In this document: positions 9,512 to 60,297 of the stretch, piece by piece
How positions within the stretch are numbered: the first letter of the stretch is position 1
How the letters are laid out: each line of letters begins with the position of its first letter
Assembly: GCA_011390365.1 (NCBI GenBank)
Contig: JAABSM010000007.1
Location: forward strand, 1-64,000
Source of the DNA: Gammaproteobacteria bacterium
Lineage (GTDB): Bacteria > Pseudomonadota > Gammaproteobacteria > Chromatiales > Chromatiaceae
Length of the DNA stretch: 64,000 nucleotides
Direction of reading: 5' to 3'
Made by a program: the position numbers and the translations under genes
The notes under the pieces: generated by a model
What the model was told of the DNA's origin: nothing
Databases searched by the model: none
The model's input: the letters and a program-made list of their open reading frames with translations, nothing else

Positions 9512-9541
9512 GCCGGGGGCGCGAGAAGAGGCGGGTAAGCG

Positions 9542-10063: not shown

Positions 10064-10080
10064 GTGCGCCGCGGAGGCGA

Positions 10081-11379: not shown

Positions 11380-11409
11380 AGGTCGCATAATGGTTAGGGA
11401 GTTGGAGTC

Positions 11410-13212: not shown

Positions 13213-13254
13213 GGAAGAGATTGATCCGCGCCGGATTGGAGTCGCACGAGAGTC

Positions 13255-16200: not shown

Positions 16201-18723
16201 GCGCTGGCAGGGCTGCTGGTGGAGGTGGCGGATACCCTGGAGGGGATATTCGATGGGGTCACCGCGCGTTACGACCAGATCCCCACCTCCCTCGACCCGC
16301 TGCTCGCCCAGCTGGACCTCTGGGCCGCCAGGCTGAGCGGTGAAAACGAGGATGATGAGGAGCGGATCGAAGAGGATGCCCTCGAAGAGGAGGGCGACCT
16401 CAGCCCCGAAGAGCTGCTATGGGACGAGAATGTCGACCCCAAGATGCTCGACGAGTTTTTTATCGAGGCCCCGGATAATGCCGCCGCCCTGTGCCGGCTG
16501 ATCTACGAAAAGCGCATCCAGCAGGAGGAGAGCCGCACCGAGGCGGCGCGGCGGGCGGCGGCGGTAGAGCACTGGTCGCGCACCGTCGGCATCCATCCGC
16601 TGCGGCGCATCGGTCAGTATCTCAAGGTGGTGTTGCAGGCGCCCCGGGATGAACCCTTTTCGCCAGCGGCGATGGGCATGCTCGAAGAGAACGCCGAACT
16701 GCTCGACAATCTGCTGGGCGCGATTCAGGGCAAGAATGATCCGATTCATGATGCCGGCGAGCGGATTCGGGACCTGGCTCAGTGGGCGAAACGGGTCGGC
16801 GAGAGTCTCAAGGAGGCGTCCGCCGCCGGCGTCAAGGGCGGCGCCGCGGCGGCCCGGGCCGAGGCCGCGCCGGCCCAGGTGGCGGAGAGCTCGCTGCGGG
16901 TGCCCACCAGCCGTATCATCGACTTGATGCGGCTGGTAGGGGAGATGACCACCGCCGTCTCCCAACTTCAGGGGCGTCTCGCCCCGGTGCTGGAGTATGT
17001 CACCGCTATCCATCGCCAGGGTCTGGTCACCAGCCAAAGGCTCGCCGACCTCGAGACCCTGGTCGAGGTGCGCAGCAAGCCGGCGGACGAGCACGGCGAG
17101 GACTTCGATCCGCTGGAGATGGATCAGTACCACGAGCTTCACGGCATCGCCAGTGCCCTCAACGAGGCGTTCGTGGATAGCCAGGAGATCGCCAAGCTGG
17201 CCGAGGATCAGCTTCAGGATCTCGCCATGATCGCCCATCGCCAGGAGCGGCTCAGCCGCGATGTGAACGAGGCGGTGCTGGCGACGCGCATGATTCCGGT
17301 CAGCGTCCTGGTGCCGCGTCTCGAGCGCACCGTGCGCGAGGCCTGCCGCGCCGCCGGCAAGAAGGCGCGCATTCACGTCGAGGGCGAACACCTGCTGGCG
17401 GATACGGATATCATCGGCGGTCTGCGCGATGCGCTGATGCACATGCTGCGCAACAGCGTCGACCACGGTATCGAGATGCCGGCCAAACGTCTGCAAAAGC
17501 TCAAGCCGGAAGAGGGGCGCATCGATATCGGCTTTCGTCGCCAGGGCAATACCATCCTGATCCGCGTGCTCGATGATGGCGCGGGTTTCGATGTCGAACG
17601 CATTCGTCAGACCGCCGCCAAGCGCGGCCTGGAGTTGCAACAGGACCTCCCGGATAACGAGGTGCTGCGGCTGGTGCTGATGCCCGGATTCTCCACCAAG
17701 CAGAACGTGACCACCCTCTCCGGCCGCGGCATCGGCATGGACGTGGTGCGCCAGTCGGTGGAGGACCTGGGCGGCACGGTGATGCTCAATAATCGTCCCG
17801 AAGGGGGCGCGGAGACCACCATTCGCCTGCCGCTGACCCTGGTCTCCGCGCCGGTGCTGCTGGTGCGTTACGCCGGCCAGCGCTTCGCCATCCCCAGTGA
17901 CGACGTCAACCAGATCCTCTATCCCGATCAGGGCTCCATCTATGCCGCGGAGGGTGGGTGGCGCTTTCGTCTGGGGAGCGAGGATTTCCGGATTCGCTCC
18001 TTCGCCTCGCTGATCGGACGCGGCAGCGACGAACGGGAATTCCAGGATTACATCGGCAAGACCGTGCTGCTCATCCAGCAGGATACCAGCCCCCTGGCGC
18101 TGCTGCTGGACAAGGCGGAGGAGAGCCGCGATGTGGTGGTGCGGCAGCTGGGTCCCTGGTTGCAATCGGTCAAGGGCGTCGCCGGGGCCTGTATTCTCGC
18201 CAATGGCGACGTGGCGCCGATCATCGATATGCGGGCGATGTTGCGGGATGAGCGGGAACGTTCCCTCGCCGATGATCTGGACCGGGATTTCTTTGAGAAC
18301 TACTATGACGATGACACGGCGGAGCGGGTTCCTGTAGTGATGGTGGTGGATGATTCCCTGAGCGCGCGCAAGTCGCTGGAGATCGCGGTGGAGGCGGCCG
18401 GCTATCAGGCGGTTCCCGCCATCGACGGGCTGGATGCGATCCGCCTGATGGATGAGCAGCTGCCGGATCTGCTGCTGGTCGACATGGAGATGCCGAAGAT
18501 GAACGGCCTCGAACTCACCACCCATGCGCGCGCGCAGCCGGAGACGGCGAATATCCCGGTGGTGATGATTACCTCCCGTTCCACCAAGAAGCACCGCGAC
18601 CGGGCGCTGGCCGCCGGGGTTACCCATTATCTCACCAAGCCCTTCGATCAGCAGCAACTGCACGGTATCATGGCGGCGTTGCTGCAACGGGGCGGAAATT
18701 CATCGCGAGGTGAAGCGAGATGA
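13255..18723 (+). CDS. ChpA-like hybrid kinase: four Hpt domains, CheA core, CheW and receiver (cluster A)
   Basis: An 1822-residue cytosolic protein. The N-terminal ~380 residues look like helical domains without phospho-His. Four Hpt repeats follow, each with the H-box AHTxKGxCxxVG at His407, His565, His791 and His947, joined by acidic linkers. A degenerate fifth Hpt-like part (about 1060-1180) lacks the H-box. After the dimerisation region come the ATPase domain (N-box MLRNSVDHG with Asn1400, G-boxes DDGAGFD and GRGIGMDVV), a CheW domain (about 1520-1660) and a C-terminal receiver with phospho-acceptor Asp1743 (LLLVDMEMP) and Lys in LTKPF. This is the ChpA layout of Pil-Chp systems, with repeats similar enough to suggest recent internal duplication. 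The next gene overlaps its stop. Confidence 0.9.
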   Translation: MSDAEILALLAEEAEFAKGELSRALEADGGGAGALSPMPLILDGLRESAEALDLRPMAEMMTWVASNLQAFAAPGGGDIKRTLLIELLTGWLSSFIGLCANPGKQTLRDSFEAALERREWPRPIPDTLLAEILASVSVDSELSPHARSLRQPPAEASGAVAASEEAIDLRPGAKVDDDVWQGFASQGREEVAVLGELLRDPDLEIYGELARDAEELAGSVAAGARAMEIPAIADLAKALEDLLESMEEGEVEEERVNLVLRAITILDAQFQHLGAADAPKEADPAAVLYEIRALLDTETAWLGATLSSLDMEAGPDERPRREKGDEPPAADAAEAENSAVSDAYAKPSAQDGGGASLLFDPATDPRLLEAFFQETPEQAAQLVAMLRGIEHGALIGEAMRDAQRIAHTIKGACAFVGLQSVYDLSYPLEEALEGLEAGPPSPAFGELLIEVADVIERLFDGIAAHDPAAPIDITPYVEKLWEWAKQLNPQQEEEDEEAQQPDGLGDDGSADEESTSLRMGGEVDPRLIEAFFAETPGIVQPLVEFLRRGEGLSGGDMMEAQRLAHTLKGSCGFVGLDEVYDLAYPLEEALEGLGADSPPAGFADLLIEVADILELLFELLLSGEKSAPIDCAPFVEQLWQWAHHINPQEALDQGTIDTSSSLPGEEESDSALITLNELADDREEPVMADEAELGGLDVDTSLGGDSEAGEPFDPMGMEEPSLFDDLPSFDLEAMESGGVGTRLAEDLDPRLAEAFYLETPDQVAELGELLRSAQRGELAGERVTEAQRVAHTVKGACALVGLGEVRDLAHHLEDVLELLGEEAPPAELADLLAETGDTLESVFDAIQAGEEQVSVDVDGLLAGFSDWAQRLGAASGTLPDGGVVDPSASAAGGVTDITLAADLDPRLAEAFFVETPDQVAELAVLLRAAGEGGLLGELVTEAQRLAHTVKGACALVGLAQVQIFAHRLEDVLERLGERPPPDALAGLLVEVADTLEGIFDGVTARYDQIPTSLDPLLAQLDLWAARLSGENEDDEERIEEDALEEEGDLSPEELLWDENVDPKMLDEFFIEAPDNAAALCRLIYEKRIQQEESRTEAARRAAAVEHWSRTVGIHPLRRIGQYLKVVLQAPRDEPFSPAAMGMLEENAELLDNLLGAIQGKNDPIHDAGERIRDLAQWAKRVGESLKEASAAGVKGGAAAARAEAAPAQVAESSLRVPTSRIIDLMRLVGEMTTAVSQLQGRLAPVLEYVTAIHRQGLVTSQRLADLETLVEVRSKPADEHGEDFDPLEMDQYHELHGIASALNEAFVDSQEIAKLAEDQLQDLAMIAHRQERLSRDVNEAVLATRMIPVSVLVPRLERTVREACRAAGKKARIHVEGEHLLADTDIIGGLRDALMHMLRNSVDHGIEMPAKRLQKLKPEEGRIDIGFRRQGNTILIRVLDDGAGFDVERIRQTAAKRGLELQQDLPDNEVLRLVLMPGFSTKQNVTTLSGRGIGMDVVRQSVEDLGGTVMLNNRPEGGAETTIRLPLTLVSAPVLLVRYAGQRFAIPSDDVNQILYPDQGSIYAAEGGWRFRLGSEDFRIRSFASLIGRGSDEREFQDYIGKTVLLIQQDTSPLALLLDKAEESRDVVVRQLGPWLQSVKGVAGACILANGDVAPIIDMRAMLRDERERSLADDLDRDFFENYYDDDTAERVPVVMVVDDSLSARKSLEIAVEAAGYQAVPAIDGLDAIRLMDEQLPDLLLVDMEMPKMNGLELTTHARAQPETANIPVVMITSRSTKKHRDRALAAGVTHYLTKPFDQQQLHGIMAALLQRGGNSSRGEAR

Positions 18724-19199
18724 GCGACGAGGGACGGGAAGTCGAATTGCAGCACGAGGTCGGCGACGGGGGACCCTGGGTGCTCTTTTCGATCGACCAT
18801 TCGTGGGTGGCGGTGGCGATGGACAAGGTCTCGGCGGTATTTGATAGCGCCGCCGTGGCGCTCTCCGCCGGTGATTCGAAGATCGCCTATGCCCAGTCGG
18901 AGCGGCAGGGGATCATCTGGTGCTGCGATGGCGATCTGCGGCCTCGGCAGGGCGAGCCGCGGGCGAAGATCCTCTGGTTCGAGGCCGCCTCGGGTCCCTT
19001 TGGCCTGTTTTGCGACGAGGCCGATGACGTGGCCGCCGGCGCGCTGGTCTCGACCCATGAACTGCCGCCGATCCTGGGTGACGAAGAGGGGTTGCTCGCG
19101 GGCCTTCTGGTCCCCGACAAGCGGCGTATCGCCACCCTTTGCGACGTCGACGGGCTGGCGGACTATCTCCATCGCGAAGAGGGCGGCGAGCATGGCTGA
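18720..19199 (+). CDS. CheW-like protein, divergent (cluster A, ChpC position)
   Basis: A 159-residue soluble protein with a probable diverged CheW fold: WVLFSIDHSWVAVAMDKVSAVF resembles the first CheW strands, and AKILWFEAASGPFGLFCDEAD the central ones. The typical RGxxxPxxDL core is missing, so binding partners may differ. Its start overlaps the stop of the ChpA-like gene by 4 bases (ATGA), and its own stop overlaps the next CheW-like gene, so the three are translationally coupled. Position corresponds to ChpC in Pseudomonas. The CheW assignment is moderately sure; the exact role is unknown. Confidence 0.6.
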   Translation: MSDEGREVELQHEVGDGGPWVLFSIDHSWVAVAMDKVSAVFDSAAVALSAGDSKIAYAQSERQGIIWCCDGDLRPRQGEPRAKILWFEAASGPFGLFCDEADDVAAGALVSTHELPPILGDEEGLLAGLLVPDKRRIATLCDVDGLADYLHREEGGEHG

Positions 19200-19641
19200 G
19201 CGGGCGAAGGCATGGGTGCTGGATGTGGGGGCGCTGTTCCCCATCGCGGTTAGCGAACACGAGATGGTGGAGGTGCTGGAGACCCCGCAATCTCATCGCG
19301 TGCCGCGGGGACCGGCCTATTGCCGCAACGTGATCGTCAGGCACAACGAGGTGATGCCTCTGCTCGATCTCTCCCGACTCGAAGGGGCGGGTGACGCGAC
19401 GCCGGGGGAGGCCGCGCCCTACACCGTGATTCTGGCCTATCAGGCGGCCCAGGATGCCATGGTGCGGCGGGCCGGCATTCTGGTGCGGCGGGCGCCCAAG
19501 GGGATCACGGTGGGAAACGAGATGGACGCGGTACCGCCTAGCGGGGTGACATCCGCCTGGCGGGGGTTGCTGATCGCCTGTTTCGAGTGGCAGGGGCAAC
19601 CGGTGCTGATTCCCGATCTGGGGCGTCTGCTGCTGCCCTGA
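19192..19641 (+). CDS. CheW-domain coupling protein (cluster A)
   Basis: A 149-residue protein with a recognisable CheW domain: the first strand ALFPIAVSEHEMVEVLE, the core RGPAYCRNVIVRHNEVMPLL and the C-terminal PVLIPDLGRLLLP, which is a typical CheW end. The ATG at 19192 lies inside the end of the upstream gene (8-base overlap), and in-frame sequence further upstream is out-of-frame kinase/CheW coding. With the PilI-like gene at 9542 and the divergent one at 18720, cluster A has three CheW-type adaptors, which could build separate receptor-kinase contacts. A 254-base gap follows. Confidence 0.72.
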   Translation: MAERAKAWVLDVGALFPIAVSEHEMVEVLETPQSHRVPRGPAYCRNVIVRHNEVMPLLDLSRLEGAGDATPGEAAPYTVILAYQAAQDAMVRRAGILVRRAPKGITVGNEMDAVPPSGVTSAWRGLLIACFEWQGQPVLIPDLGRLLLP

Positions 19642-19895
19642 TTTTGTCCGATGGGCTTGCAACGCTGATCGGGCAATAAGCGACGCGGGGGAATTGCGTG
19701 GCGGCAACCGAGGCACGTAGGATCGTCCCATGCGGCGACGGCTTATCCCCGCCGCGGAAATATCCTACCCGCGGATGATGTCACGACAAACGCGGGAAAA
19801 GTCATCGTTGTGTCCGTTGGAGACTATATCCTGAACGGGCAATGCTATATCATGTTCGAACGATAAGAGATCAAAAGGGGCTGAGGTAGCGGACT

Positions 19896-20687
19896 ATGGA
19901 GCATAGAACCTTCACGGTTGGCCTGATAGGCGTGAAAGAGGTGGAACAGGCGATGATGGATCGTGCGGTCCGTCTGTCCCAGTTTCGGACCCGGGTCTAC
20001 CAACTCCTGCCCAGGAACTCCGTCCTCAGCGATGCCGACGTCGTGGTGGTGGATGGAGATCCCGGTCTGGCGCCGGTCGGCGTGCCGGTGGTACAGATCC
20101 ATGATCGCGGCGATGCCGCGGCGAAGAGCCGCAAGGGTTACAAGGTGGAGCGTCCGCTATTGCCCAATCGGGTTCTCAAGGTACTCGATCAGGTCACCAT
20201 GGAGGTGCTCAATTTCGCCCCGGAACTGGATATCGGCGGCGAGGTATCGGGTACCCAGACCAGCATTTTCGAGACCCTCAAGGGGGTCACGGAGGATGAC
20301 GGGGCGGCGAGAGCCAACAAGGTGGATCTGCGGGTGCTGGTGGTGGACGATTCGATGCTGGTGCAGAAACAGATGGAGTTGACCCTGGCAGGGGCGGGAA
20401 TACGGGCGGAATTCGCCTCCGACGGCCAGACCGCCATCGACATGCAGAAGCGCAATCACTACGACCTCATCTTTCTCGATGTCATGATGCCGGGAATCGA
20501 CGGCTTCCAGACCTGCAAGGCGCTCAAGAAGGTCGAGCCGTCGCCCCATGTGGTGATGCTCACCTCCAAGGGCTCCGCGTTCAACAAGGCGCACGGGGTT
20601 TTGGTGGGCGCCGATGCCTACCTGACCAAACCCGCGAATCGGGAGACGCTGCTCGAAGCGATGGAAAAGGTGTTCGACAAGAAGTAG
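19896..20687 (+). CDS. Two-domain response regulator: N-terminal receiver-like domain plus receiver (cluster A)
   Basis: A 263-residue protein. Residues about 1-110 look like a degenerate receiver fold (IGVKEVEQAMMDRAV, DVVVVDGD, ending VERPLLPNRVLKVLD). Residues about 140-262 are a canonical receiver with VDDSMLV, phospho-acceptor Asp195 (LIFLDVMMP), MLTSKG and YLTKP. The same unusual layout occurs at 56609-57409, the first chemosensory gene of cluster B. Here it lies last, after a 254-base gap with its own likely promoter. By position and receiver style it may do the job of PilG, the twitching-extension regulator. The N-terminal domain may be a docking or dimerisation module, which is inference. 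Confidence 0.8.
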   Translation: MEHRTFTVGLIGVKEVEQAMMDRAVRLSQFRTRVYQLLPRNSVLSDADVVVVDGDPGLAPVGVPVVQIHDRGDAAAKSRKGYKVERPLLPNRVLKVLDQVTMEVLNFAPELDIGGEVSGTQTSIFETLKGVTEDDGAARANKVDLRVLVVDDSMLVQKQMELTLAGAGIRAEFASDGQTAIDMQKRNHYDLIFLDVMMPGIDGFQTCKALKKVEPSPHVVMLTSKGSAFNKAHGVLVGADAYLTKPANRETLLEAMEKVFDKK

Positions 20688-47783: not shown

Positions 47784-47909
47784 CGGTCTGGGTGCTGAAG
47801 TCCGAAAACCGGGAAGTTTGCCACAGGTGTCACCGAGATGCAGCGACAAAATGCCGGCGATCGCGCTGATCGCGACCCCCGGCCCCATGTGGAAGGGCGT
47901 AAACGGCAT
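47784..47909 (-). pseudogene. N-terminal remnant of an MPFTPFHMGPG-type protein
   Basis: The reading frame MPFTPFHMGPGVAISAIAG, starting at 47909, resembles the conserved start of a family of small hydrophobic proteins (MPFTPFH-GPG). After about 22 codons similarity ends and the frame continues open into the QueD-like gene. Its ATG overlaps the cyclase TGA (TGATG). It is probably a decayed or fused gene. Confidence 0.45.
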
Positions 47910-49975
47910 CAGTCATTACCCGCCGATTCGAGGAAACGGCGTGCCTTCTCGGAGAGGCGGGTGAAACGAATCCGCATTCCCCTCTCGGTTTTATCGGTAA
48001 CCTTGGCGTAGAGGTCGTCATGGTCCAGCCCTCCCGCGAACAGATTGAGACGAATATCAGTTAGTGTATCTAGTGTATTGGTGATCTCGATCTCCGCGCT
48101 GCGTCCATCGCTCGCTACTAGCAAACCCTCGCCGGCCTGCCCGGTATCCTCTTTGCCCGATATCGCGACATAGCCAATGGGCAGGGGTTGGGCGAGAACG
48201 CTCAAGCACTCCTGGCGCACCGGCAGGCGCAGATTGTAATCGCCGGCGATGCCGATCACTTCAGTAATACTCATTGGCGTCTTCAGTCCCTTGGCCTTGA
48301 CCTGCATGCATTTTCCAAGCTCCAGGATCCCTTCCAGCGGTTGCCGGACCGAATCGGAAACCAGCAACTGGCCGCCGACGGTATAACCTTCGACCCGCGC
48401 CGCCATGTTCACCGGGCTGCCAATGGCGCTGAACTTGGCCCGTTTTTCGGAGCCGATGTTGCCGATGATCACCTCGCCGCTATTCAGGCCAATCCCCATT
48501 TCCAGCGGCGGCAGACCATCGCGGCGATTGGCCCGGTTGATCTCTTCCATGGCGAGCTGCATCTCGATGGCGCAGGCGACGGCGCGCGCGGCGTGGTCGT
48601 TCATGCGCAGCGGGGCCCCGAACATGATGAACATGCCATCGCCCAAGATATCGTCGATGGTACCGCGATGTTTCTGGATAATCTCCACCATCGGCTCGAA
48701 GTAACGGTTGAGCATGGTCACCACCTGCTCAGGCGAGTAGTTCTCGGTGAGGGCGGTGAATCCGCGCAGATCGCTCATCATGGCGGTGATCTCGCGGCGT
48801 TCTCCGCCCAGCGCCAGGGCGCCGGGGGTCTCCAGCAGGGTGCGCATCACCTCCACGTTCTGATAGCGACCGAAGACGTCCTTGATGTGTTCACGGTCGC
48901 GCAGGCCGCGAATCATCACATTGATCTGGATCGCCAGATAACCGATCTCGTCGCGGCGATCAAGGACCGGCGCTTGTGTCTCCAGATCCCCCTCACCGAC
49001 CCGCTTGACCGCTCTGTCCAGGGCGATGATGGGACGGCTGATGCGACGCGAAAAGAGCCAGGCGGCGAGGGTGGCGAGGAGCGCCGCGATCAGCGCCCAC
49101 ATCAGCAGGCGCTGGCGCATCCGCTCCACCGGCAGATAGGCGGTGGCGGCATCCCGCTCCACCACCACCGTCCAGGGGAGGGAGCGGGGCAGGGCATAGC
49201 CTCCCAGAATCGCCCGCCCCGTTTCGGTCCTGAAGGGCATCACCCCCACTGATGCGCCAGCCCCTTGCCGAAGCTCGGCGAGTTGGCGGGTCAGCGGGTT
49301 ATCATCAAGAATGTCGCTGGCCGCCCCGAACAGCGGTTCGCCGCGCTGATCCAGCAACAGGATTGCGCCATTTTCGTTGAATGGATGATTTTCGACATGC
49401 TGGCGCAATCTGGCCAGATCGATGCGGGCGCTCAACAAGGTGGAGGCATTCCCGACGTCACCAGCGACGGGAAGAACCAGATGGAGCAGCTCCAGGGTTG
49501 GCTCCTCGATGCGGGTGATGTGGCCATTGACGATGGCAGCCTCGCTCGCGACACGCAAGCGGGAGTGGGGAACCAGCAGTCGTTCCGCCGCCCGCCCTCC
49601 CCCGGCCTGGATCAGTTCGGCGATTCGATCCTGGACGATCAGCGCCGGCTCACCGCCCTCGTCGCTGGATACTTGCAGGGCGACGATATCCGGCAGGGCG
49701 CTGACACTGGTCAGCAGCGCCAGTTTAGCGGAGGCAGGGAGGTCGGGATTCGCCAGCGTGCCGGCCATCAACTCCAACGGCGCCCGCCATTGATCCAAAA
49801 CCAGATTGTCGATACGCTCGCCGACCGAGCGGGCGGTTTGCATCAACTCGTCGTTGATCGTGCTCTTGAGCTCGTTTTCGCTGTTTTTCAGGGAGTAAAG
49901 CCCCAGAGAGGCGAGCGGCAGAATCGCCAGGGGTATCGAGAAGAGCAAAAGTTTCCAGAAAATGTTGAATCGCAT
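47909..49975 (-). CDS. Membrane class III adenylate/guanylate cyclase with periplasmic sensor and HAMP
   Basis: A 688-residue inner-membrane protein. Transmembrane 1 is at about 7-26. A periplasmic sensor of Cache-like size (about 27-285) follows, then transmembrane 2 (about 290-310), HAMP (about 310-365), and the class III cyclase domain (about 390-565) with SDLRGFTALTE, GDGMFIMFGAP, and GLNSGEVIIGNIG near the dimer interface. The metal-binding Asp pair is in SDLRGF and GDGMF. The C-terminal ~110 residues (to RFTRLSEKARRFLESAGND) resemble a degenerate PilZ-like module. It likely makes cAMP in response to an extracellular signal. The start is the ATG at 49975; 49990 is also in frame. Confidence 0.88.
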   Translation of the reverse strand: MRFNIFWKLLLFSIPLAILPLASLGLYSLKNSENELKSTINDELMQTARSVGERIDNLVLDQWRAPLELMAGTLANPDLPASAKLALLTSVSALPDIVALQVSSDEGGEPALIVQDRIAELIQAGGGRAAERLLVPHSRLRVASEAAIVNGHITRIEEPTLELLHLVLPVAGDVGNASTLLSARIDLARLRQHVENHPFNENGAILLLDQRGEPLFGAASDILDDNPLTRQLAELRQGAGASVGVMPFRTETGRAILGGYALPRSLPWTVVVERDAATAYLPVERMRQRLLMWALIAALLATLAAWLFSRRISRPIIALDRAVKRVGEGDLETQAPVLDRRDEIGYLAIQINVMIRGLRDREHIKDVFGRYQNVEVMRTLLETPGALALGGERREITAMMSDLRGFTALTENYSPEQVVTMLNRYFEPMVEIIQKHRGTIDDILGDGMFIMFGAPLRMNDHAARAVACAIEMQLAMEEINRANRRDGLPPLEMGIGLNSGEVIIGNIGSEKRAKFSAIGSPVNMAARVEGYTVGGQLLVSDSVRQPLEGILELGKCMQVKAKGLKTPMSITEVIGIAGDYNLRLPVRQECLSVLAQPLPIGYVAISGKEDTGQAGEGLLVASDGRSAEIEITNTLDTLTDIRLNLFAGGLDHDDLYAKVTDKTERGMRIRFTRLSEKARRFLESAGND

Positions 49976-50168
49976 GGTCGTAGGTCCCATCCATTGTCAC
50001 TGCGGCCATTCTAATGCATTCCCGACTCGGGAAACGATCCCAAACCGGTGAATATGCGCCATGGGATTGGTGAAAACAGGTTAGAATCCTGTAGGATGGT
50101 CTGGTGTGGTAACTGAAAACGTCATCAAACCTTTTGATGGCTCGGTAAATAATTACGGGAGAACAGGA

Positions 50169-52051: not shown

Positions 52052-53533
52052 ATGGCGAACCCCTTCCCCACTATTGTTATTGGCGGCGGCTTCGGCGGCA
52101 TGGCGGCGGCGTTGCGCGCCCGTGCCTTGGGGCAGCGGGTGTTGCTGCTGGAGCGTGGCGACAGGCTGGGCGGGCGCGGGCGGGGTTTCGAGCTGGAGGG
52201 TTTTCGCTTCGACGCCGGCCCCACGGTTGTCACCGCCCCCCATCTTTTCGAGGAGCTGTTCGAGCTGTTTGGCGAGCGGCTCGCCGATCATGTCGAGCTG
52301 ATCCCGCTGGAGCGTTTCTATCGCTTTCGTTTCGACGACGGCAGCGAGTTCGCCTATGGCGGCGATGTGGCGCGCACGGCGGCGGCGATTCGAGCCTTCG
52401 CGCCGGGGGATGAACAGGGCTATCGCGTCCTGGTCGATCATTGCCGACGCATCTTCGAGGTGGGCTACCAGGAGCTGGCCCATGTCCCCTTCCACGATCC
52501 CCGTGTGCTGCTGCGCCACACCCCGCGACTCCTCGAATTGGGCGCCTGGCGTGGCGTCTATGGGGCCGTCAGTCGCCATTTGCGCGACGAACGGCTGCGG
52601 CGCGCCTTCAGCACCGCCCCGATGCTGGTGGGCGGCCACCCCTTCGACACCACCTCCATCTATCTGTTGATCCACTTTCTGGAACTGAAGTGGGGGGTGT
52701 GGTACCCGCGCGGCGGCGTCGGCGCCCTCGTGCAGGCCCTGACCCATCTGATGCGGGACCATGGGGTGGAGATCCGCCGTGGAGCGACGGTGCGGCGTAT
52801 CCATCGACAACGAGGCGATCGGGTGGGCGCCGTGGAGCTGGAAGGGGGAGAGATGATCGCGACCCAACGCGTCATCTCCAACATCGACCCCATGCATCTA
52901 TACCAATCGCTGTTGCCCGATACAGGAATCCTCGCCGGTCTGCGCCGCCGCACCCTGCAACACTCCATGGGGCTCTTTCTGCTCTACTTCGGCGTCGATC
53001 GGGAGTACCCCGGCGTCGATCAGCACAGCATCCTGTTCGGGCGGGATTTTCGCGCCCCGCTAGACGACATCTTCCATCGACGACGCATCCCCGACGACTT
53101 CTCCCTCTATCTGCACCGCGCCAGCGCCGCGGATCCGGCCATGGCCCCCGCGGGAGGGGAGAGTTTCTACGCGCTGGTTCCGGCGCCCAATCTGGCCGCG
53201 GACATCGACTGGCGGGAAGAGGGCAAGGCGCTGGAAGAGCGGGTACTGGATCGTCTCGAAGCGACCTTGTTGCCCGGGCTGCGCGCGCACCTGAAGGTCC
53301 GCCGCGCGATCACGCCCCAGTTCTTCGCCGATGAGCTGCTCAGCCATCTTGGCTGCGGCTTCTCCATCGCGCCGCGTTTCCACCAGTCGGCCTGGTTTCG
53401 TTTTCACAACCGCTCCCCCCATGCCCGGGGGCTCTACCTCACCGGGGCCGGGACCCACCCCGGCGGTGGCTTGCCGGGGGTGCTCAACTCCGCCAAGGTG
53501 GTCGAGAGCCTGCTCCGAGGGGATGCCCCGTGA
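52052..53533 (+). CDS. crtI: Phytoene desaturase CrtI
   Basis: CrtI desaturates phytoene toward lycopene. The 493-residue flavoprotein has the FAD-binding IVIGGGFGGMAAAL start (GGGFGG at 11-16), a conserved DAGPTVVT segment, and the C-terminal CrtI signature GLYLTGAGTHPGGGLPGVLN. Full length. It is the first gene of the tightly overlapping crtI-crtB-crtY-blh run. The upstream 183 bases contain a palindrome and no clear promoter match. Product lycopene is the substrate of the following cyclase. CrtE (GGPP synthase), needed to supply the pathway, is not in the window. Confidence 0.96.
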   Translation: MANPFPTIVIGGGFGGMAAALRARALGQRVLLLERGDRLGGRGRGFELEGFRFDAGPTVVTAPHLFEELFELFGERLADHVELIPLERFYRFRFDDGSEFAYGGDVARTAAAIRAFAPGDEQGYRVLVDHCRRIFEVGYQELAHVPFHDPRVLLRHTPRLLELGAWRGVYGAVSRHLRDERLRRAFSTAPMLVGGHPFDTTSIYLLIHFLELKWGVWYPRGGVGALVQALTHLMRDHGVEIRRGATVRRIHRQRGDRVGAVELEGGEMIATQRVISNIDPMHLYQSLLPDTGILAGLRRRTLQHSMGLFLLYFGVDREYPGVDQHSILFGRDFRAPLDDIFHRRRIPDDFSLYLHRASAADPAMAPAGGESFYALVPAPNLAADIDWREEGKALEERVLDRLEATLLPGLRAHLKVRRAITPQFFADELLSHLGCGFSIAPRFHQSAWFRFHNRSPHARGLYLTGAGTHPGGGLPGVLNSAKVVESLLRGDAP

Positions 53534-54510
53534 AAGGTGAAACAAGCAGCGGCGGCCCCGGCAAGCCCCCGCCATTCAGGCCCGAGGCGGCCATGCAAAG
53601 CCTGCGTCGCCATGGCAAGAGCTTCTTCTGGGCCTCCTTCTTTCTGCCCCGGAAAGGCCGGGAGGGGGCCGCTCGCCTCTATGCCTTCTGCCGCGCGCTG
53701 GATGACTACGCCGACGAGCTGCCGCCGGATCAGGCGCGCCAGATCCTGGCGGAGATTCAACGGGATCTGCTGGAGGATGGCACGGCCACTCCCTTCGGCG
53801 GCGAGATGCGCATCCTGGAACGGCGTTTCGATGTGCCTCGCGCGGCCATGCTGCGGCTGATCACCGCCCTGATCGAGGATAGCCATCCGCGTCGCATTAC
53901 CCGTCAAGGGGAGCTGCTGCGCTATGCATACGGAGTAGCGGGAAGCGTCGGACTGATGATGCGGCCCCTGCTGGCGGCGAAGGATTCCCAGGCCATCCCT
54001 TTTGCCGTCGATCTCGGGGTGGCGATGCAATTGACCAATATCGCCCGGGATGTGCTGGAGGATGCGCGGCGGGATCGACGCTATTTGCCAAGCGCCCCCG
54101 CCCCGGGCCATCCCCCGCGGGGCGACGAGCTTTGTCCGCAATCCCTCATCGCCGGGGATCCGCAAACGCAAGCCGCGGCGTGGCGCCAGATACAGGCGGT
54201 ACTGGACCTGGCGGCGTGCTATTATCGCAGCGCCGACCGGGGGATGGCCTTCATCCCCTTGCGTTCGCGCATCGCCATCGTTACCGCCGCGCGCATCTAC
54301 GAGGCGATCGGCACGCGTATTCTTCGCCTCGGTCGCGACCATTACTGGGGCCGAAGGGTGCGGATTGGGCCGGCGGGCAAGATCGGCGGGAGCTTTCGGG
54401 GCCTGATCCATGGGCTGGGGGTTTCCCGCCCTGAACATCACGATAAAAACTTGCATGAAGCATTCGCGGATTTGCTGAGAGAGGATAGCGGGACGGGATC
54501 GGATGGATGA
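53530..54510 (+). CDS. crtB: Phytoene synthase CrtB
   Basis: CrtB joins two geranylgeranyl diphosphates to make phytoene. The 326 residues include the first Asp-rich motif ALDDYADE (56-63), the second LTNIARDVLEDA (168-179), and the intervening YCYRVAGSVG-like YAYGVAGSVGLMM. The GTG start at 53530 overlaps the crtI stop (GTGA), so the genes are translationally coupled. The C-terminal tail is slightly long. It overlaps crtY by 8 bases. Confidence 0.95.
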   Translation: MKGETSSGGPGKPPPFRPEAAMQSLRRHGKSFFWASFFLPRKGREGAARLYAFCRALDDYADELPPDQARQILAEIQRDLLEDGTATPFGGEMRILERRFDVPRAAMLRLITALIEDSHPRRITRQGELLRYAYGVAGSVGLMMRPLLAAKDSQAIPFAVDLGVAMQLTNIARDVLEDARRDRRYLPSAPAPGHPPRGDELCPQSLIAGDPQTQAAAWRQIQAVLDLAACYYRSADRGMAFIPLRSRIAIVTAARIYEAIGTRILRLGRDHYWGRRVRIGPAGKIGGSFRGLIHGLGVSRPEHHDKNLHEAFADLLREDSGTGSDG

Positions 54511-55651
54511 ACTGACCATCATCGGCGGCGGCTGCGCGGGGCTGGGGTTGGCCGCGGCGCTCTCCGAGGCGGTCGAGCACCTCGACGGCGACGCACTGCT
54601 GCTGGAGGGACGCCCCCACTATGGCTATGATCGCACCTGGTGCTACTGGGATCTGGAGGAGCACCCCTACCGGCGTCTGGAACGATTCCACTGGCGGCGC
54701 TGGAAGGTCCGATATCAGGGCCGGGAGGTGGTCCAGGCAAGCGAACGCTACCGCTATGCGCTGCTGCCATCCGGCCTCTACTACCGGGAAACCCTGTCAC
54801 GGATCAATGCGCTGGCGAAGATTCATGTGGAACGGGGGTGCGAGGTGCAGGGGTATGCCCGCGAGGGCAAGGGTTGGCGGATCGATACCAATCGCGGTCA
54901 CCGACACAGCAAGGTGCTTGTCGAGGCGCGCGGGACCTTTGCCGAGAGAGGTGACCGGCGGGGGCTGCTCCAGCACTTCGTCGGCCAGTACCTGCACCTG
55001 AGCGAGCCGATTCTCGATCCCGGCGTGGCGACCCTGATGGATTTCGACGTGGATCAGTCGCGGGGCATTCACTTCATCTACATGCTGCCCCTAACCCACG
55101 ATAGCGCCTATGTCGCGGACACCTATTTCGGTCATGCGGCGATGGAGAGAGAGGTCTACCGCAGTAACATCCGCGCCTGGCTGCGTGAACGATATGGCGT
55201 CACCCGCTGCGACACGGATGGCGAGGAGTTCGGCGCCATCCCCATGTCTTGCGGCTACTCCAGACGACGACTGGGGCGGGGCGGCTTCGCCGTCGGCGGT
55301 GCCGGCGGGGCGATCAAGGCGAGCAGCGGCTACGCCTTTTGCGCCATTCAACGGCAGATCGGGAACTGGCTCAACGATATCCGTCGCAATCAATGCTGGT
55401 GCGTGCCGCCGCCGCCTCGCGCGCGGGGCCTGGAGTGGCTCGATCGGATCTTCTTGAGCTACATGTACCAACACCCCGGGCGCATGCCGGCGGTTTTCAC
55501 CAGGCTGTTCGAGACTTGTGAGCCGGATGCGCTGGTACGCTTCCTCTCCGATCGTCCCACGGCCGCGGATGTGGCGCAGGTGATTCGCGCCGCTCCGCCC
55601 CTCGGCATGACCCTGGCCGCGCTGCGCGGCCTGCCATGCTGGGTCGGCTAG
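54503..55651 (+). CDS. crtY: Lycopene beta-cyclase CrtY
   Basis: CrtY cyclises both ends of lycopene to make beta-carotene. The 382-residue protein has the FAD-binding IIGGGCAGLGLAAAL start (6-20), the DRTWCYW motif typical of CrtY, and MDFDVDQSRGIHFIYMLP plus GGAGGAIKASSGYAF near the end. It is translationally coupled to crtB by an 8-base overlap and is followed by blh after 13 bases. Beta-carotene is the substrate of the next enzyme. Confidence 0.95.
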   Translation: MDELTIIGGGCAGLGLAAALSEAVEHLDGDALLLEGRPHYGYDRTWCYWDLEEHPYRRLERFHWRRWKVRYQGREVVQASERYRYALLPSGLYYRETLSRINALAKIHVERGCEVQGYAREGKGWRIDTNRGHRHSKVLVEARGTFAERGDRRGLLQHFVGQYLHLSEPILDPGVATLMDFDVDQSRGIHFIYMLPLTHDSAYVADTYFGHAAMEREVYRSNIRAWLRERYGVTRCDTDGEEFGAIPMSCGYSRRRLGRGGFAVGGAGGAIKASSGYAFCAIQRQIGNWLNDIRRNQCWCVPPPPRARGLEWLDRIFLSYMYQHPGRMPAVFTRLFETCEPDALVRFLSDRPTAADVAQVIRAAPPLGMTLAALRGLPCWVG

Positions 55652-55664
55652 CAGGGGAGCGGGG

Positions 55665-56594
55665 ATGAGCCGAGATCGCTCCTCCAATCTGTTCATGGTC
55701 GTCGCCTGGCTGGTGATCTTCGGTTCTCTCCTGTTGGCGGCGCCCGGCGACGCCATGGTGCTATGGATGCTTGCCGCTGCGGTCATCGCCGGGCTTCCCC
55801 ATGGCGCCCTGGACGCCTGGGTGCTGCGCCAAACCGGGCAGGGGCGCTGGTTCATCGCTGGCCTGCTTGGCTATGCCCTGGCCGCCCTGAGCGTGATTCT
55901 GGCGTGGATTTTTTTCCCGGCGATCCTGCTGGGGGCTTTTCTTTTCCTCGCCGGGTTCCATTTTGCCATTAGTGATCCGCTGGCGCCGACCCGCCGCGCC
56001 GCGCTTTTCGAAGGGCTCGCCCGGGGCGGCGCGCCCCTCGCGACGCCCGCCTTCTTCCATCAAGAGCGAACCGCGGAACTCTTCGGCATGCTCGCAAGCG
56101 GTGGCGCGGGAGAGCGACTGGCGGAGATGCTCGGGCTATTGTTCTGGCCGTGGCTGGCATCCCTGATCCTCGCCCTGGTGCTGGCAAGCCGCGGCGCGCC
56201 GCGGCGCGTCGGTTTCGAGCTGCTGACCCTGCTGGCGCTATTCGCGCTAGTGCCGCCGCTGCCGGCATTCGCGATCTATTTCGCGCTGTTGCACTCGCCG
56301 CGTTCGATGGTCGCCACCCTGCAAAAAACGGGACTGGAGCGAAAGGGGTGGTTTTTCGATGCGGTTTGGCCCACACTCGCGACGATCGCCGCCGCCCTGG
56401 TCATCTTCGCGACGGGGATGGCGGGCGGTTTTTCGGACGCGGGCGTGGTCCGGGTGCTGTTCGTGGGTCTCGCGGCGGTCACCTTTCCCCATGTGATACT
56501 CTGGACCATCATTATTGCAAGAGAGGGTGGAAGCCATCAGAATAGGCGCAATGCGTTGATCGCCGCGGGAAGTGGCGATCGCGGTCGAGAATAA
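55665..56594 (+). CDS. blh: Beta-carotene 15,15'-dioxygenase, Brp/Blh family
   Basis: Blh cleaves beta-carotene into two retinal molecules. The 309-residue protein is integral-membrane with about 7-8 hydrophobic segments. The metal-binding and family motifs are GLPHGALDAW (43-52, His46), GFHFAISD (97-104, His99), LLHSPRS (near 208-214) and FPHVIL (near 274-279). These four His positions match the Brp/Blh signature. Bacteria use Blh to make retinal for rhodopsins. No rhodopsin gene is in this window. Its TAA stop overlaps the ribosome site (TAAGGAGCA) of the next gene, a response regulator. Confidence 0.94.
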   Translation: MSRDRSSNLFMVVAWLVIFGSLLLAAPGDAMVLWMLAAAVIAGLPHGALDAWVLRQTGQGRWFIAGLLGYALAALSVILAWIFFPAILLGAFLFLAGFHFAISDPLAPTRRAALFEGLARGGAPLATPAFFHQERTAELFGMLASGGAGERLAEMLGLLFWPWLASLILALVLASRGAPRRVGFELLTLLALFALVPPLPAFAIYFALLHSPRSMVATLQKTGLERKGWFFDAVWPTLATIAAALVIFATGMAGGFSDAGVVRVLFVGLAAVTFPHVILWTIIIAREGGSHQNRRNALIAAGSGDRGRE

Positions 56595-56611
56595 GGAGCA
56601 ATCATCTTATG
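56592..56611 (+). promoter_or_regulatory. Ribosome binding site overlapping the blh stop codon
   Basis: TAAGGAG at 56592-56598 joins the blh stop to a strong ribosome site, 10 bases before the ATG at 56609. This supports read-through from the retinal genes into the chemosensory cluster. Confidence 0.8.
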
Positions 56612-57409
56612 GCGGGCAGGGAAATCTTTTCAATCATGCTATGCGGCCTGAGCGATCGGGATCGCATGCTGGTCTCCAGCGCGGTGCGTCTCTCGGCGAT
56701 GCGGGCCGGAAAATATGCGATCCACGACCCGAAAGACGACAAGGATCCGCCCTCCCTCTATCTGGTGGACGATACACAGGAGGGCTGGAAGATCTGGAAC
56801 CAGCATGCCGGCAAATACGACAACTACAACGCCCCGGTGCTGATCCTCGGCGATGGAGGCGAAAGCAGCCACAACCACGCCCCCCGCTATCACCTCTTCA
56901 AGCGGCCGGTCGTGGCGACCCGCCTGCTCAAGGCGCTCGACGAGATGACCGTGACCTACTTCGACCGCGGCGTCCTCATCAGCGATGACATCAGCGTCGG
57001 CGAGATCACCGCCATCGGCGGGCAGAGCTGCGCCATCCCCGGCCAGGGCAAACGCGTACTGGTGGTGGACGACAGCGAATCGGTGCGCAAGCTGATGGAG
57101 GTCAAGCTCTCCGCCAAGGGCATCGGCGCCGATTTCGCCGAGGACGGCGAGAGCGCCCTTTCCATGGCCCGCAAGCACGAGTATGACCTGATCTTCCTCG
57201 ACGTGATGCTGCCCGGCATCGACGGTTACGAGGTGTGTCGCCACCTCAAGAAAAACCTGGACATCAAGGGCAAGGTACTGATGCTTACCAGCCGATCCTC
57301 GCGCATGGATCGCCTTCGCGGAAGCCTCTCCACCGCCGACGGCTACCTGACCAAGCCCTTGAGCGGAGAGGATTTGCAAAACGTCCTAGAGGAATATCTT
57401 GAGCTTTAG
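56609..57409 (+). CDS. Two-domain response regulator: receiver-like plus receiver (cluster B, PilG position)
   Basis: A 266-residue protein with the same layout as 19896-20687. Residues about 1-125 look like a receiver-like fold that lost key residues (GLSDRDRMLVSSAVRLS, SLYLVDDTQEGWK, VLILGDGG, ending LFKRPVVATRLLKALDEM). Residues about 147-266 are a canonical receiver: VVDDSESVRK, phospho-acceptor Asp198 (LIFLDVMLP), LTSRSS, YLTKPL. It sits 14 bases after blh and 86 bases before the PilH-like gene, at the PilG position of a Pil-Chp order. The C-terminal receiver could take phosphate from the CheA-like protein at 60317. Confidence 0.82.
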   Translation: MAGREIFSIMLCGLSDRDRMLVSSAVRLSAMRAGKYAIHDPKDDKDPPSLYLVDDTQEGWKIWNQHAGKYDNYNAPVLILGDGGESSHNHAPRYHLFKRPVVATRLLKALDEMTVTYFDRGVLISDDISVGEITAIGGQSCAIPGQGKRVLVVDDSESVRKLMEVKLSAKGIGADFAEDGESALSMARKHEYDLIFLDVMLPGIDGYEVCRHLKKNLDIKGKVLMLTSRSSRMDRLRGSLSTADGYLTKPLSGEDLQNVLEEYLEL

Positions 57410-57495
57410 AGTGATCGTGCGATATAGTTCAGGTTATACAAGAATGGGCTCATCGCGCAATACAAAAATTGTACAAACCGGTATGGAGTTCCCCC

Positions 57496-57855
57496 ATGAG
57501 CAAGCTACTCGTCGTCGACGACTCAACCACCGATCAGAACTATCTGGCGGATATCCTCAGCAAGGCCGGCCACCATGTGTCGCGGGCCTCATCCGGCAAG
57601 GAGGCCATTGAGCGGGCGTTGGCGGAGAAGCCGGACATGATCTTCATGGACGTGGTGATGGAGGACATGGATGGCTACAATGCCACCCGCGAGATCCTGG
57701 AACAGGACAAGGAGAGGGATGTGCCGGTGGTGATGGTGACCAGCAAGAATCAGAAGGCGGACAAGGTATGGGCGCAGATGCAGGGCGCCAAGGGGTATAT
57801 CGTCAAACCCTACACCGAAGAGGACGTGCTGGAGCAGCTGCGCAATCTGCTGTAA
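57496..57855 (+). CDS. Single-domain response regulator, PilH-like (cluster B)
   Basis: A 119-residue receiver with VDDS start, phospho-acceptor Asp52 (FMDVVMED), VTSKNQKADKVWAQ and IVKPYTEED. It is nearly the same type as 9131-9511 in cluster A. The ATG at 57496 has a GGAG site 7 bases upstream (57485-57488). An 86-base gap before it contains AT-rich sequence that could hold an internal promoter. Confidence 0.88.
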   Translation: MSKLLVVDDSTTDQNYLADILSKAGHHVSRASSGKEAIERALAEKPDMIFMDVVMEDMDGYNATREILEQDKERDVPVVMVTSKNQKADKVWAQMQGAKGYIVKPYTEEDVLEQLRNLL

Positions 57856-57891
57856 TCCGCGCCCGCCCTCGGCGGCGAAAAGGTGAACAAG

Positions 57892-58470
57892 ATGACACCA
57901 GACCATCCTTCAATGGATACCACGAAACCGAAGCCCGCCAACACCAACCTGGAGCAGCTCAAGCAGGAGATCCTGGGATACTCCGAGGAGCTGACGGAGC
58001 GGGGCGAGGGCGCGCCGGGACGGCGTCACGGTGGTGATACCTTTCTCCACATCTTCGTCGTTGGCGGCGACGGCTACATGATCCCCGCCGGCGCCCCGGC
58101 GGTAATGGTGCAGGCCGGCAGTGTGCGACGCCTGCCGTTTTCCACCCCCTGGTTCGAGGGGCTGATCCACTACCGGGGCGATCTGGCGCCGCTGTTCGAT
58201 TTGAGCCGCTTCTACGCGCCGAACGGCGACAGGAGCAAGGGGCGCTACATGCTGGTCGTCGGCCATGGCGATGACAAGGCGGCGCTGCGGGTGGAGGAGG
58301 TCAGTACCGTCGCCGCCGAGGCCATCATCGAAGAGACCCGGCAAAGCGAAAGAGAGTTCGTGGTGAGGATTCACAACATCGACGGCAAGAGCTATCGGGA
58401 GCTGGATCTTCAGGGATTGTTCAAGGCGATGGCGGGGCGCTCGATCTCCAATCAGACGGAACCTGCCTGA
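57892..58470 (+). CDS. CheW-domain coupling protein, PilI-like (cluster B)
   Basis: A 192-residue protein. After an unstructured ~50-residue start, residues about 55-185 form a CheW domain: FEGLIHYRGDLAPLFDLSRF is the RGxxxPxxDL core, and YMLVVGHGDDKAALRVEEV follows. It links the MCP at 58498 to the CheA-like protein at 60317. I chose ATG 57892, which has AAAAGGTG upstream; a GTG at 57883 is also possible. It lies 36 bases after the PilH-like gene and 27 before the MCP gene. Confidence 0.85.
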   Translation: MTPDHPSMDTTKPKPANTNLEQLKQEILGYSEELTERGEGAPGRRHGGDTFLHIFVVGGDGYMIPAGAPAVMVQAGSVRRLPFSTPWFEGLIHYRGDLAPLFDLSRFYAPNGDRSKGRYMLVVGHGDDKAALRVEEVSTVAAEAIIEETRQSEREFVVRIHNIDGKSYRELDLQGLFKAMAGRSISNQTEPA

Positions 58471-58497
58471 CGACACCACTGGATTGGAGGAACGAAT

Positions 58498-60297
58498 ATG
58501 CAGATCAAAGACCTATCGATTTCGGCCAAGCTGACCCTGGCGACCACCAGCGCGATGCTGGTGATCTTCTTCCTGGTCTCCGCCGGGGTGGTGGCGATCA
58601 CCATCACATCCGGCGGTTCGGGGCCGATACACCAGGCCCCGGCGGCCAATCCCCAGGAGCATTTCCTCAAGAGCGTTCGTTCGATCGAGAGCGCCGGGGT
58701 GATGCTGTCGAGCATGGTCGCCGATGCGCTGGCCGATGGCGAGGGCCTGGCGCAAGCGGAGAGCCAGCGCCTCAACGAGATGATCGCCCTCGCCAGCAAG
58801 GACCCGGAGATCGCCTACGCGGTGGTCACCTCCGCCAGCGGCGAGGCCCTCGTCGGCAATGGCGCGCCGGGCTCCAGCGCCAATTTCCGGCGCTTTCCGG
58901 TGATGGTCTCGGGCGAGGAGCAGGGCAGGCTGGAGATCGGTCTCAGCAAGCCGCTGAGCGGCGTCGCCGCGGTCGAACCCGCCTCCGAGAGAGCGCCTCA
59001 GGGCAACGACGCCGCCATCGCCACCATCATCGCCATCGTCCTCACCGGCGCGGTGGTCACCGCGATGGTCATTCAGTACGCCATCTACAAGATGACCCAA
59101 CGTTTCATCAATCTTCCGGCCACCCGCATCCAGTTCGCCCTTAGCGAGATGGAGCGGCGGCGGGATTACTCCAGCCGGGTCGAGGCGGAGGCGGACGACG
59201 AACTGGGCGCCACCGTGGAGGCGTTCAACCGGGCGCTGGATTTTCTCGATCGCCAGAACAATCAGCTCAACGACTCGGTGATCGACCTGCTGGAGAGCGC
59301 GGGCAAGATCAGCACCTCCCGCGACCTCACCATCAAGGCGCCGGTGCGCGAGGATATTACCGGCCCCCTCGGCGACGCCCTCAACCGCCTTACCAAGGAG
59401 ACCAGCCGGGTGCTGGAGAAGGTGCAATCGGTGGCGGAACAGGTGGCGTCGGCGGCGCGCGAGGTGCGCGAGCAGGGTGGCCGGGTGGTCGACGTTGCCA
59501 ATCGCGAACAGGAGCTGATCGAGCACACCTCCAAGGAGCTGTCGCAGGCGATCGAGGCGATCGACGGCATCGCCGAACTGGCCCAGCTCTGCAACGACGC
59601 CGCCCAGGAGGCGACGACCTCCACCGGCGAGGCCCTCAACGCGGTGGACAACACGGTAGAGGGGATGAGCGACATTCGCGACACCATTCAGGAGACCGGC
59701 AAGCGCATCAAGCGCCTCGGCGAACGCTCCCAGGAGATCAGCGGCATCGTCGACATCCTCAACTCCTTCGCCGAACGCACCCACGTCCTCGCCATCAACG
59801 CCAGCATGCAGGCGGTCAACTCCGGCGAAGCGGGCAAGGGCTTCGCGGTGGTTGCCCACGAGGTGCAACGCCTCGCCGACAGCTCCCGCTCCGCCACCTC
59901 CCAGATCGCCGACCTGGTCGGCAACATCCAGGTCGAGACCTCGGACGCCATCCAGACCGTGAATCAGGCGATCGAGACGGTCACCGAACAGTCCCGCACC
60001 GTCGAATCCGCCGGTGAGCAGATGCGTATTACCCAGGGCAAGAACAATACCCTCGCCGATTCGGTGCAGCAGATCTTTGCCCGCTCCCAGAATCAGGCCG
60101 CGGCCAACTCCCGCCTGCTGGAACAGATCGGCTCGATGCGTGCCGGGACCACCGAGACCACCAATCAGATCGCCGAGCAGAGCGAGCACACCAAGCGCCT
60201 GGCCGGCTACGCCGAGGAGATGCTGGAGGCGATCCAGATGTTCAAACTGCCCAAGCCGGTCGGCGAGGCCGCCGCCAAGTCCGGCGACAAGGCCTGA
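58498..60297 (+). CDS. Methyl-accepting chemotaxis protein, PilJ-like (cluster B)
   Basis: A 599-residue inner-membrane receptor. Transmembrane 1 is about 12-36, the periplasmic part about 37-165, transmembrane 2 about 168-195, then HAMP and coiled-coil signalling. The tip reads EISGIVDILNSFAERTH then AINASMQAVNSGEAGKG, clearly paralogous to cluster A's MCP. The periplasmic sensor is shorter than that of cluster A and not similar to it, so the two receptors probably sense different things. No periplasmic binding protein gene precedes it. Its position next to the retinal genes makes it a candidate partner for a rhodopsin, but nothing in it binds retinal as far as can be seen. Confidence 0.88.
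   Translation: MQIKDLSISAKLTLATTSAMLVIFFLVSAGVVAITITSGGSGPIHQAPAANPQEHFLKSVRSIESAGVMLSSMVADALADGEGLAQAESQRLNEMIALASKDPEIAYAVVTSASGEALVGNGAPGSSANFRRFPVMVSGEEQGRLEIGLSKPLSGVAAVEPASERAPQGNDAAIATIIAIVLTGAVVTAMVIQYAIYKMTQRFINLPATRIQFALSEMERRRDYSSRVEAEADDELGATVEAFNRALDFLDRQNNQLNDSVIDLLESAGKISTSRDLTIKAPVREDITGPLGDALNRLTKETSRVLEKVQSVAEQVASAAREVREQGGRVVDVANREQELIEHTSKELSQAIEAIDGIAELAQLCNDAAQEATTSTGEALNAVDNTVEGMSDIRDTIQETGKRIKRLGERSQEISGIVDILNSFAERTHVLAINASMQAVNSGEAGKGFAVVAHEVQRLADSSRSATSQIADLVGNIQVETSDAIQTVNQAIETVTEQSRTVESAGEQMRITQGKNNTLADSVQQIFARSQNQAAANSRLLEQIGSMRAGTTETTNQIAEQSEHTKRLAGYAEEMLEAIQMFKLPKPVGEAAAKSGDKA

Follow-up and report, generated by a model that had tools for sequence, protein, structure and literature searches.

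Light-responsive chemosensory arrays acting on type IV pili are known from cyanobacteria, where the Pix/Tax system carries a PATAN-CheY and CheY regulator pair and senses light through the bilin-binding cyanobacteriochrome PixJ1 (PMC5812497, available sections). In the same sections of this 2017 review, the steering of motility by sensory rhodopsins is known only from archaea, and the photoresponses of purple bacteria are credited to the photosynthetic apparatus. Among the best literature matches for a rhodopsin joined to a Pil-Chp-like array, no title or abstract opening names such an arrangement and none pairs ‘rhodopsin’ with ‘Pil-Chp’, nor is it described in the available sections of PMC5812497, PMC12826048, PMC3746430, PMC4766312 or PMC6704655. 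Here we describe this arrangement in a Gammaproteobacteria bacterium of the family Chromatiaceae, the purple sulfur bacteria (assembly GCA_011390365.1, contig JAABSM010000007.1). The window, the whole stretch of DNA analysed, consists of bases 1-64000 of this 74,609-base contig (C147), and parts past 64000 are given in contig numbering.

The gene run at 52052..67522 holds, in order and on one strand, crtI-crtB-crtY-blh-RR1-RR2-CheW-MCP-CheA-secreted protein-rhodopsin-RR3-heme oxygenase, in which RR1 to RR3 are response regulators and MCP is a methyl-accepting chemotaxis protein. We think it probable that a sensory rhodopsin drives a Pil-Chp-type array here and that the run is a dedicated photosensory operon. 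Taken separately, light input to the array is very likely and, given light input, there is a good chance that pili would be the output. This reading is built on the observed gene content, conserved linkage, residues, loss of a periplasmic domain and phylogenetic clustering. The features of the run and of the two genes that converge on it are as follows.

52052..53533, + strand, crtI, phytoene desaturase (TIGR02734, 526.6 bits, cut-off 238.1)
53530..54510, + strand, crtB, phytoene synthase (SQS_PSY, 170.2 bits, cut-off 26)
54503..55651, + strand, crtY, lycopene cyclase (Lycopene_cycl PF05834, 142.5 bits, cut-off 23.4)
55665..56594, + strand, blh, beta-carotene 15,15'-dioxygenase, which makes retinal (Brp/Blh TIGR03753, 155.6 bits, cut-off 95.25)
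56609..57409, + strand, RR1, N-terminal receiver-like domain and REC (REC at residues 150-260)
57496..57855, + strand, RR2, single REC, PilH/PilG-like (PF00072, above cut-off)
57883..58470, + strand, CheW-like protein (PF01584, 50.9 bits, above cut-off)
58498..60297, + strand, MCP-type transducer with weak HAMP and PilJ-like tip (MCPsignal, 103.5 bits; HAMP under its cut-off)
60317..64432, + strand, CheA/ChpA-like kinase with C-terminal REC (Hpt, HATPase_c, CheW, REC; gene cut by the window end at 64000)
contig 64425..65102, + strand, secreted-repeat protein, Lipoprotein_15 (Pfam)
contig 65268..66029, + strand, rhodopsin (PF01036, 91.6 bits)
contig 66047..66868, + strand, RR3 (Pfam)
contig 66881..67522, + strand, heme oxygenase, last gene of the rhodopsin run (Pfam)
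contig 67766..69298, – strand, phytochrome photosensory module without kinase, convergent to the rhodopsin run (Pfam)
contig 69291..73865, – strand, CheB-CheR-PAS-GGDEF-EAL protein, convergent to the rhodopsin run (Pfam)

A sequence-only reading of the window had described a retinal operon running directly into chemosensory genes. On rechecking, its coordinates, overlaps and gaps were all exact (crtI/crtB –4, crtB/crtY –8, crtY/blh +13 and blh/RR1 +14 bases), its gene identities agree with the family matches, and the ribosome site that it placed inside the blh stop codon is the TAAGGAG ahead of RR1, which does begin there. The CheA-like gene that it listed is present; however, it runs beyond the window, to 64432, and same-strand genes continue to 67522. 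For CrtB and CrtY no NCBIfam cut-off was passed, so these names rest on Pfam and gene order. A pattern scan listed neither a terminator-like nor a + strand promoter-like site in the blh-RR1 gap, where a terminator would have spoken against the proposed junction, though such a scan is not a transcript test. Its other matches are a – strand promoter-like site at 56604-56633 that touches the final bases of this gap, a + strand promoter-like site at 57399-57428, at the end of RR1, and a + strand terminator-like site at 55914-55935, within blh. As the totals are near chance expectation (2 promoters against 2.1 expected, 12 terminators against 8.2 expected with a standard deviation of 3.1), these matches are not treated as evidence.

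The rhodopsin, for which a search of the genome had been proposed, is encoded 1.3 kb past the window end on the same strand. Across the genome (4.26 Mb, 98% complete) it is the single match to PF01036; the search did not extend to heliorhodopsins, which form a family of their own. The protein scores above the family cut-off, as a seven-helix type 1 rhodopsin should, and has Lys230, the helix G position at which such rhodopsins bind retinal, as do all 17 of the rhodopsins compared. The nearest solved relative by sequence is 4hyj, the Exiguobacterium sibiricum rhodopsin (E 2.3e-35), and a model of the 92%-identical rhodopsin of S22.Bin169 (predicted local distance difference test score, pLDDT, 88.9) matches 4hyj at a TM-score of 0.83. 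The 4hyj protein is a proton pump, and retinal operons usually serve pumps, so the protein could be an ordinary light-driven energy pump whose place next to the array reflects chance or mere co-expression. With bacteriorhodopsin numbering placed by eye, all 17 rhodopsins have Tyr at the Asp85 position and thus no Asp as proton acceptor, and the Asp96 (donor) position holds Met in 16 and Thr in one; the Arg82, Trp86, Asp212 and Lys216 positions are retained in 17/17. In the alignment, 4hyj has Asp and Lys where this rhodopsin has Tyr and Met. We reject a pump on these helix-C residues, which favor a sensor instead. The linkage to the array in every carrier also argues against a pump, for which there would be little need in the 14 of 17 carriers that have photosynthetic reaction centre genes, and we regard this explanation as extremely improbable. 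No reaction centre genes were found in this genome, CSSed165cm_20 or S22.Bin169; since these three keep the rhodopsin, photosynthesis need not be a requirement for its use. Cock Soda Lake is the source of the CSSed165cm bins (PMC6704655, available part).

The rhodopsin was found in 6 of 56 relatives, this genome included, and in 17 of 195 family genomes, distributed over 9 of 61 genera. Carriers include Thiocystis violacea DSM 207, T. minor DSM 178, Chromatium okenii (two strains, including DSM 169), C. weissei, Imhoffiella purpurea AK35 and two Thiodictyon. When named genomes were scanned with two peptide patterns (92 stretches), 12 loci came up; every one bears the title Gammaproteobacteria, Chromatiaceae or a genus of that family, and for 10 the title is Chromatiaceae or one of its genera. 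Across 369 genomes of the class, only this genome scored as a member; nine others reached 42-52 bits and are taken for putative ordinary proteorhodopsins. A viral origin was rejected, as none of 195 pattern-matching viral_contigs stretches was confirmed as a relative.

Linkage was counted over rhodopsin carriers. In 17/17, the rhodopsin gene adjoins the visible part of the same array; not every locus is whole, with the CSSed165cm_20 contig (G001) showing the CheA side only and that of PL23b (G019) beginning at RR2. The start of the rhodopsin gene overlaps the preceding stop by 4 bases in Imhoffiella, T. minor, C. okenii DSM 169 and G187, and elsewhere the gap is 19-85 bases, apart from 181 in S22.Bin169 and 165 here. 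In G023 and G032, rhodopsin instead follows blh (gaps of 234 and 236 bases) and precedes RR1. Beyond the core genes, no family is common to more than 4 of the 17 stretches, a count that listed the rhodopsin itself in 16/17 and is thus slightly low. The earlier proposal that retinal supply feeds a photoreceptor coupled to a Pil-Chp-like system is therefore well supported by a single PF01036 rhodopsin in the same gene run and by a pairing that recurs in every carrier. The comparison of the blh-RR1 junction among relatives, which it had also proposed, counts partly against it, as the exact junction was seen in this genome only and in none of the four other Blh carriers. Two loci deserve separate mention. 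Ahead of its rhodopsin cluster, S22.Bin169 carries an additional RR1-RR2 pair together with kinase-like pieces, as if by duplication (L015:16373-19999). In C. okenii LaCa (L050:3600-4545), where RR1 is a partial match and the RR2 match is split into two overlapping pieces, sequencing error or decay could be the cause.

The transducer offers a view of where the signal might enter. The linked MCP has transmembrane (TM) segments at residues 19-37 and 174-192, and an MCP is in the cluster at 16/17 loci, the contig of the 17th (G001) stopping within CheA. Two TM segments are found in 14 of 15 MCPs compared, and the 15th (G168) aligns across both. Ten are long forms of 589-612 residues, of which the periplasmic region takes up roughly 135-150. 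The other five (two Thiodictyon and three Chromatium) are short forms of 515-528 residues with a periplasmic region of about 60, and they retain TM1, TM2 and the signalling part. The secreted-protein gene (Lipoprotein_15) was matched in 12/17 clusters, and the five without a match are the same five with a short MCP. As these five form one clade in both trees, we count one co-loss, not five; our interpretation is that a chemical input was lost while the light input stayed. TM helices that persist without most of the periplasmic domain point to an input within the membrane. Between eight other long MCPs and the five short ones, identity is 0.65 in TM1, 0.55 in TM2, 0.33 in the few aligned periplasmic columns and 0.76 in the cytoplasmic rest; when this MCP and its S22.Bin169 counterpart are compared with the short forms, the corresponding values are 0.45, 0.30, 0.10 and 0.61.

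The kinase has the Hpt, HATPase_c, CheW and C-terminal REC domains of the ChpA type. It scores 376 bits against the second ChpA-like kinase of the window, 316 against the ChpA of C92 and 160 against the CheA of C111, and the MCP gives 276, 179 and 71 bits against the MCPs matching the second window cluster, C92 and C111. The PilJ N-terminal domain (PF13675) is absent from the linked MCP and present in the C92 PilJ, for which reason we call the array Pil-Chp-type and not Pil-Chp. All 17 linked CheA form one clade (support 100/99), with five other family CheA in the tree outside it. RR2 is 50% identical to the REC protein at 9086-9511 of the window and shares 41% identity with the second REC in the Pil-Chp cluster on C92, while RR3 and RR1 share 37% identity across 271 positions. 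The N-terminal part of RR1 has no Pfam match; receiver strand-helix (beta-alpha) order in its model (mean pLDDT 77.3) and a profile comparison to receivers (80% probability) suggest a receiver fold. A fold search with RR1 matched two-receiver proteins whole-chain at a root-mean-square deviation of 13-19 Å, which adds little for the N-terminal domain.

The window contains a second Pil-Chp-like cluster at 9086-20687, comprising REC, CheW, a ligand-binding protein of the Peripla_BP_6 family (10081-11379), MCP, a ChpA-like kinase of 1822 aa in which Hpt is matched four times, CheW-type genes and a regulator resembling RR1. This cluster appears to be the counterpart of the light cluster for chemical input.

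As to output, PilB and three PilT/PilU-family ATPases are above their cut-offs in this genome, and no flagellin was found in it; the same holds for 4 of the remaining 16 carriers. It is also conceivable that the rhodopsin drives the array toward second messengers or gene expression (cyclic AMP, cyclic di-GMP, biofilm formation) rather than movement. Chp systems of Pseudomonas also control cyclic AMP, and a class III nucleotide cyclase (47909-49990, – strand, with HAMP and a sub-threshold Cache domain) lies 2 kb upstream of crtI on the opposite strand, with the CheB-CheR-GGDEF-EAL protein downstream of the run; in G092, a PAS-GGDEF-EAL match (41% over 554 residues) is found ~6 kb from the rhodopsin gene. 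However, the cyclase is unmatched in the fetched stretches of relatives, the CheB-CheR protein is matched by its GGDEF-EAL half only, in 4 genomes, and what is conserved is REC outputs instead of second-messenger genes, with pilus motors present. We consider an output of this kind unlikely.

One possible mechanism, then, begins with CrtI, CrtB, CrtY and Blh, which would convert the cell’s geranylgeranyl diphosphate to retinal. Retinal would bind Lys230 of the downstream rhodopsin, which, having lost the proton-relay residues of helix C, is predicted not to pump. The light-driven change in the rhodopsin would pass sideways in the membrane to the two-helix MCP, in the manner of archaeal sensory rhodopsin and Htr. 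The MCP, CheW and the ChpA-type kinase would then phosphorylate RR1, RR2 and RR3, and these regulators would set extension or retraction of type IV pili. The secreted protein and the periplasmic domain of the MCP may provide a second, chemical input, lost in one lineage. Light-guided surface motility would be the output, as the sequence-only reading had it; taken as a whole, its interpretation is partly supported.

Several observations weigh against this mechanism or its generality. Within the array, CheW is unmatched in the G122 cluster, and TM1 and TM2 of the MCP are kept better than the periplasmic part but worse than the cytoplasmic part. The kinase tree joins the linked kinases to the other ChpA-like kinase of the window and places the C92 ChpA beside the C111 CheA; these joins are flagged as long-branch, so descent from ChpA rests on scores, and which of the other CheA is nearest is undecided. 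Flagellin is present in 12/17 carriers, and pili need not be the output of the array everywhere. In this genome, the gaps of 86 bases between RR1 and RR2 and of 165 bases before the rhodopsin gene, the latter containing a repeat, could split the transcript. A further difficulty is that Blh is missing from 12 of the 17 carriers. An RPE65-type oxygenase is found in 2/17 carriers, one of them among these 12, so that 11 carriers have neither enzyme, and one of the 11 (G187) is a single-contig assembly. In the search for an alternative retinal enzyme, no unknown gene family was common to more than 4 of the 17 stretches.

The opsin might accordingly have become a membrane component of the array with no further need for retinal, at least in carriers lacking Blh, with the retinal genes of this genome serving something else. 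The 12 opsins of Blh-lacking carriers do form a separate clade (support 100/100) with 29 diagnostic columns, including Tyr to Phe at two helix F sites, and some of these columns presumably lie near the retinal pocket by homology. Against this, the Lys216 and Asp212 positions are kept in all carriers, and the ratio of nonsynonymous to synonymous substitution rates (dN/dS), 0.067-0.214 in 9 rhodopsin pairs, is 0.067-0.096 in the 6 pairs without Blh, indicating purifying selection on these opsins. Blh is also confined to rhodopsin carriers, occurring in 5 of the 195 family genomes (6 genes), with four His invariant in the 5/5 compared. Three of the five have blh and the rhodopsin cluster in one block: in this genome blh precedes RR1, and in G023 and G032 it comes directly ahead of rhodopsin. 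The blh of S22.Bin169 and that of CSSed165cm_20 lie on a different contig from the cluster. Blh is present in each of the three carriers that yielded no reaction centre gene. We therefore judge a retinal-free opsin very unlikely. The second Blh gene of G023 (Thiorhodococcus) is on contig C71 (L069), which also holds reaction-centre genes.

With a sensory rhodopsin driving the array as the preferred reading, a broader proposal can be made more tentatively. It is possible, though we would not lean on it, that these proteins are a distinct sensory rhodopsin family, marked by Tyr at the counterion position and firmly tied to a Pil-Chp-type array throughout the purple sulfur bacteria, C. okenii and C. 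weissei among them, and that they are an overlooked direct photoreceptor beside the photosynthetic apparatus. Members without Blh might then rely on scavenged retinal or on a different chromophore, for example an apocarotenal derived from photosynthetic carotenoids.

The surroundings of the run add some further observations. With heme oxygenase as its last gene, the run holds enzymes for both retinal and biliverdin; beside it, the start of the phytochrome-module gene overlaps the stop of the CheB-CheR-PAS-GGDEF-EAL gene. The rhodopsin and phytochrome sensors may work jointly, and neither heme oxygenase nor phytochrome had a match in the fetched stretches of relatives. A ~100-base element with 16-19-base inverted ends has three copies in the contig (37380-37479, 41887-41986 and 65099-65198), the third between the secreted-protein and rhodopsin genes; the inverted repeat before rhodopsin was considered as a terminator and rejected, being this element. 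A recent foreign origin of crt-blh was rejected on composition: at 0.65-0.67, the guanine-cytosine content of the four genes falls inside the range seen over the cluster (0.58-0.72). The four proteins share 42-57% identity with their S22.Bin169 counterparts, as compared with 92% for rhodopsin, which proves nothing because CheW (52%) and RR3 (59%) are about equally low.

Compared with known systems, the locus shares with haloarchaeal sensory rhodopsin-Htr-CheA systems a rhodopsin gene beside a two-TM MCP-type transducer and CheA, CheW and REC parts and, in one clade, the short periplasmic loop of the transducer. Unlike these, it is bacterial, uses a Pil-Chp-type kinase and transducer, has Tyr for the Asp85 counterion, and would act on the pilus in place of the archaellum. 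With Pil-Chp (PilGHIJ-ChpA) it shares the REC-REC-CheW-MCP-ChpA-like order, and its nearest paralogs by score are the second ChpA-like cluster and the genome’s ChpA and PilJ; it differs in lacking the PilJ N-terminal domain, in having a photoreceptor in the operon and an extra receiver-like domain in the first regulator, and in its single Hpt match, where ChpA has several Hpt domains and the other ChpA-like kinase of the window has four. With the cyanobacterial Pix/Tax system it would share a light input to a type IV pilus chemosensory array, and it has a regulator pair at the place of PATAN-CheY plus CheY. In Pix/Tax the bilin photosensor is fused in the MCP-type protein PixJ1, whereas here the photosensor would be a separate retinal protein. 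The Tyr-for-Asp change, together with the absence of Blh from most carriers, raises the question of chromophore and counterion, and the conserved cluster in named strains makes a direct photoreceptor testable in a group that Engelmann probably studied. The cluster has the look of a complete device for sensing light in surface movement, one that would operate in the manner of sensory rhodopsin-Htr systems but through a relay of the Pil-Chp type.

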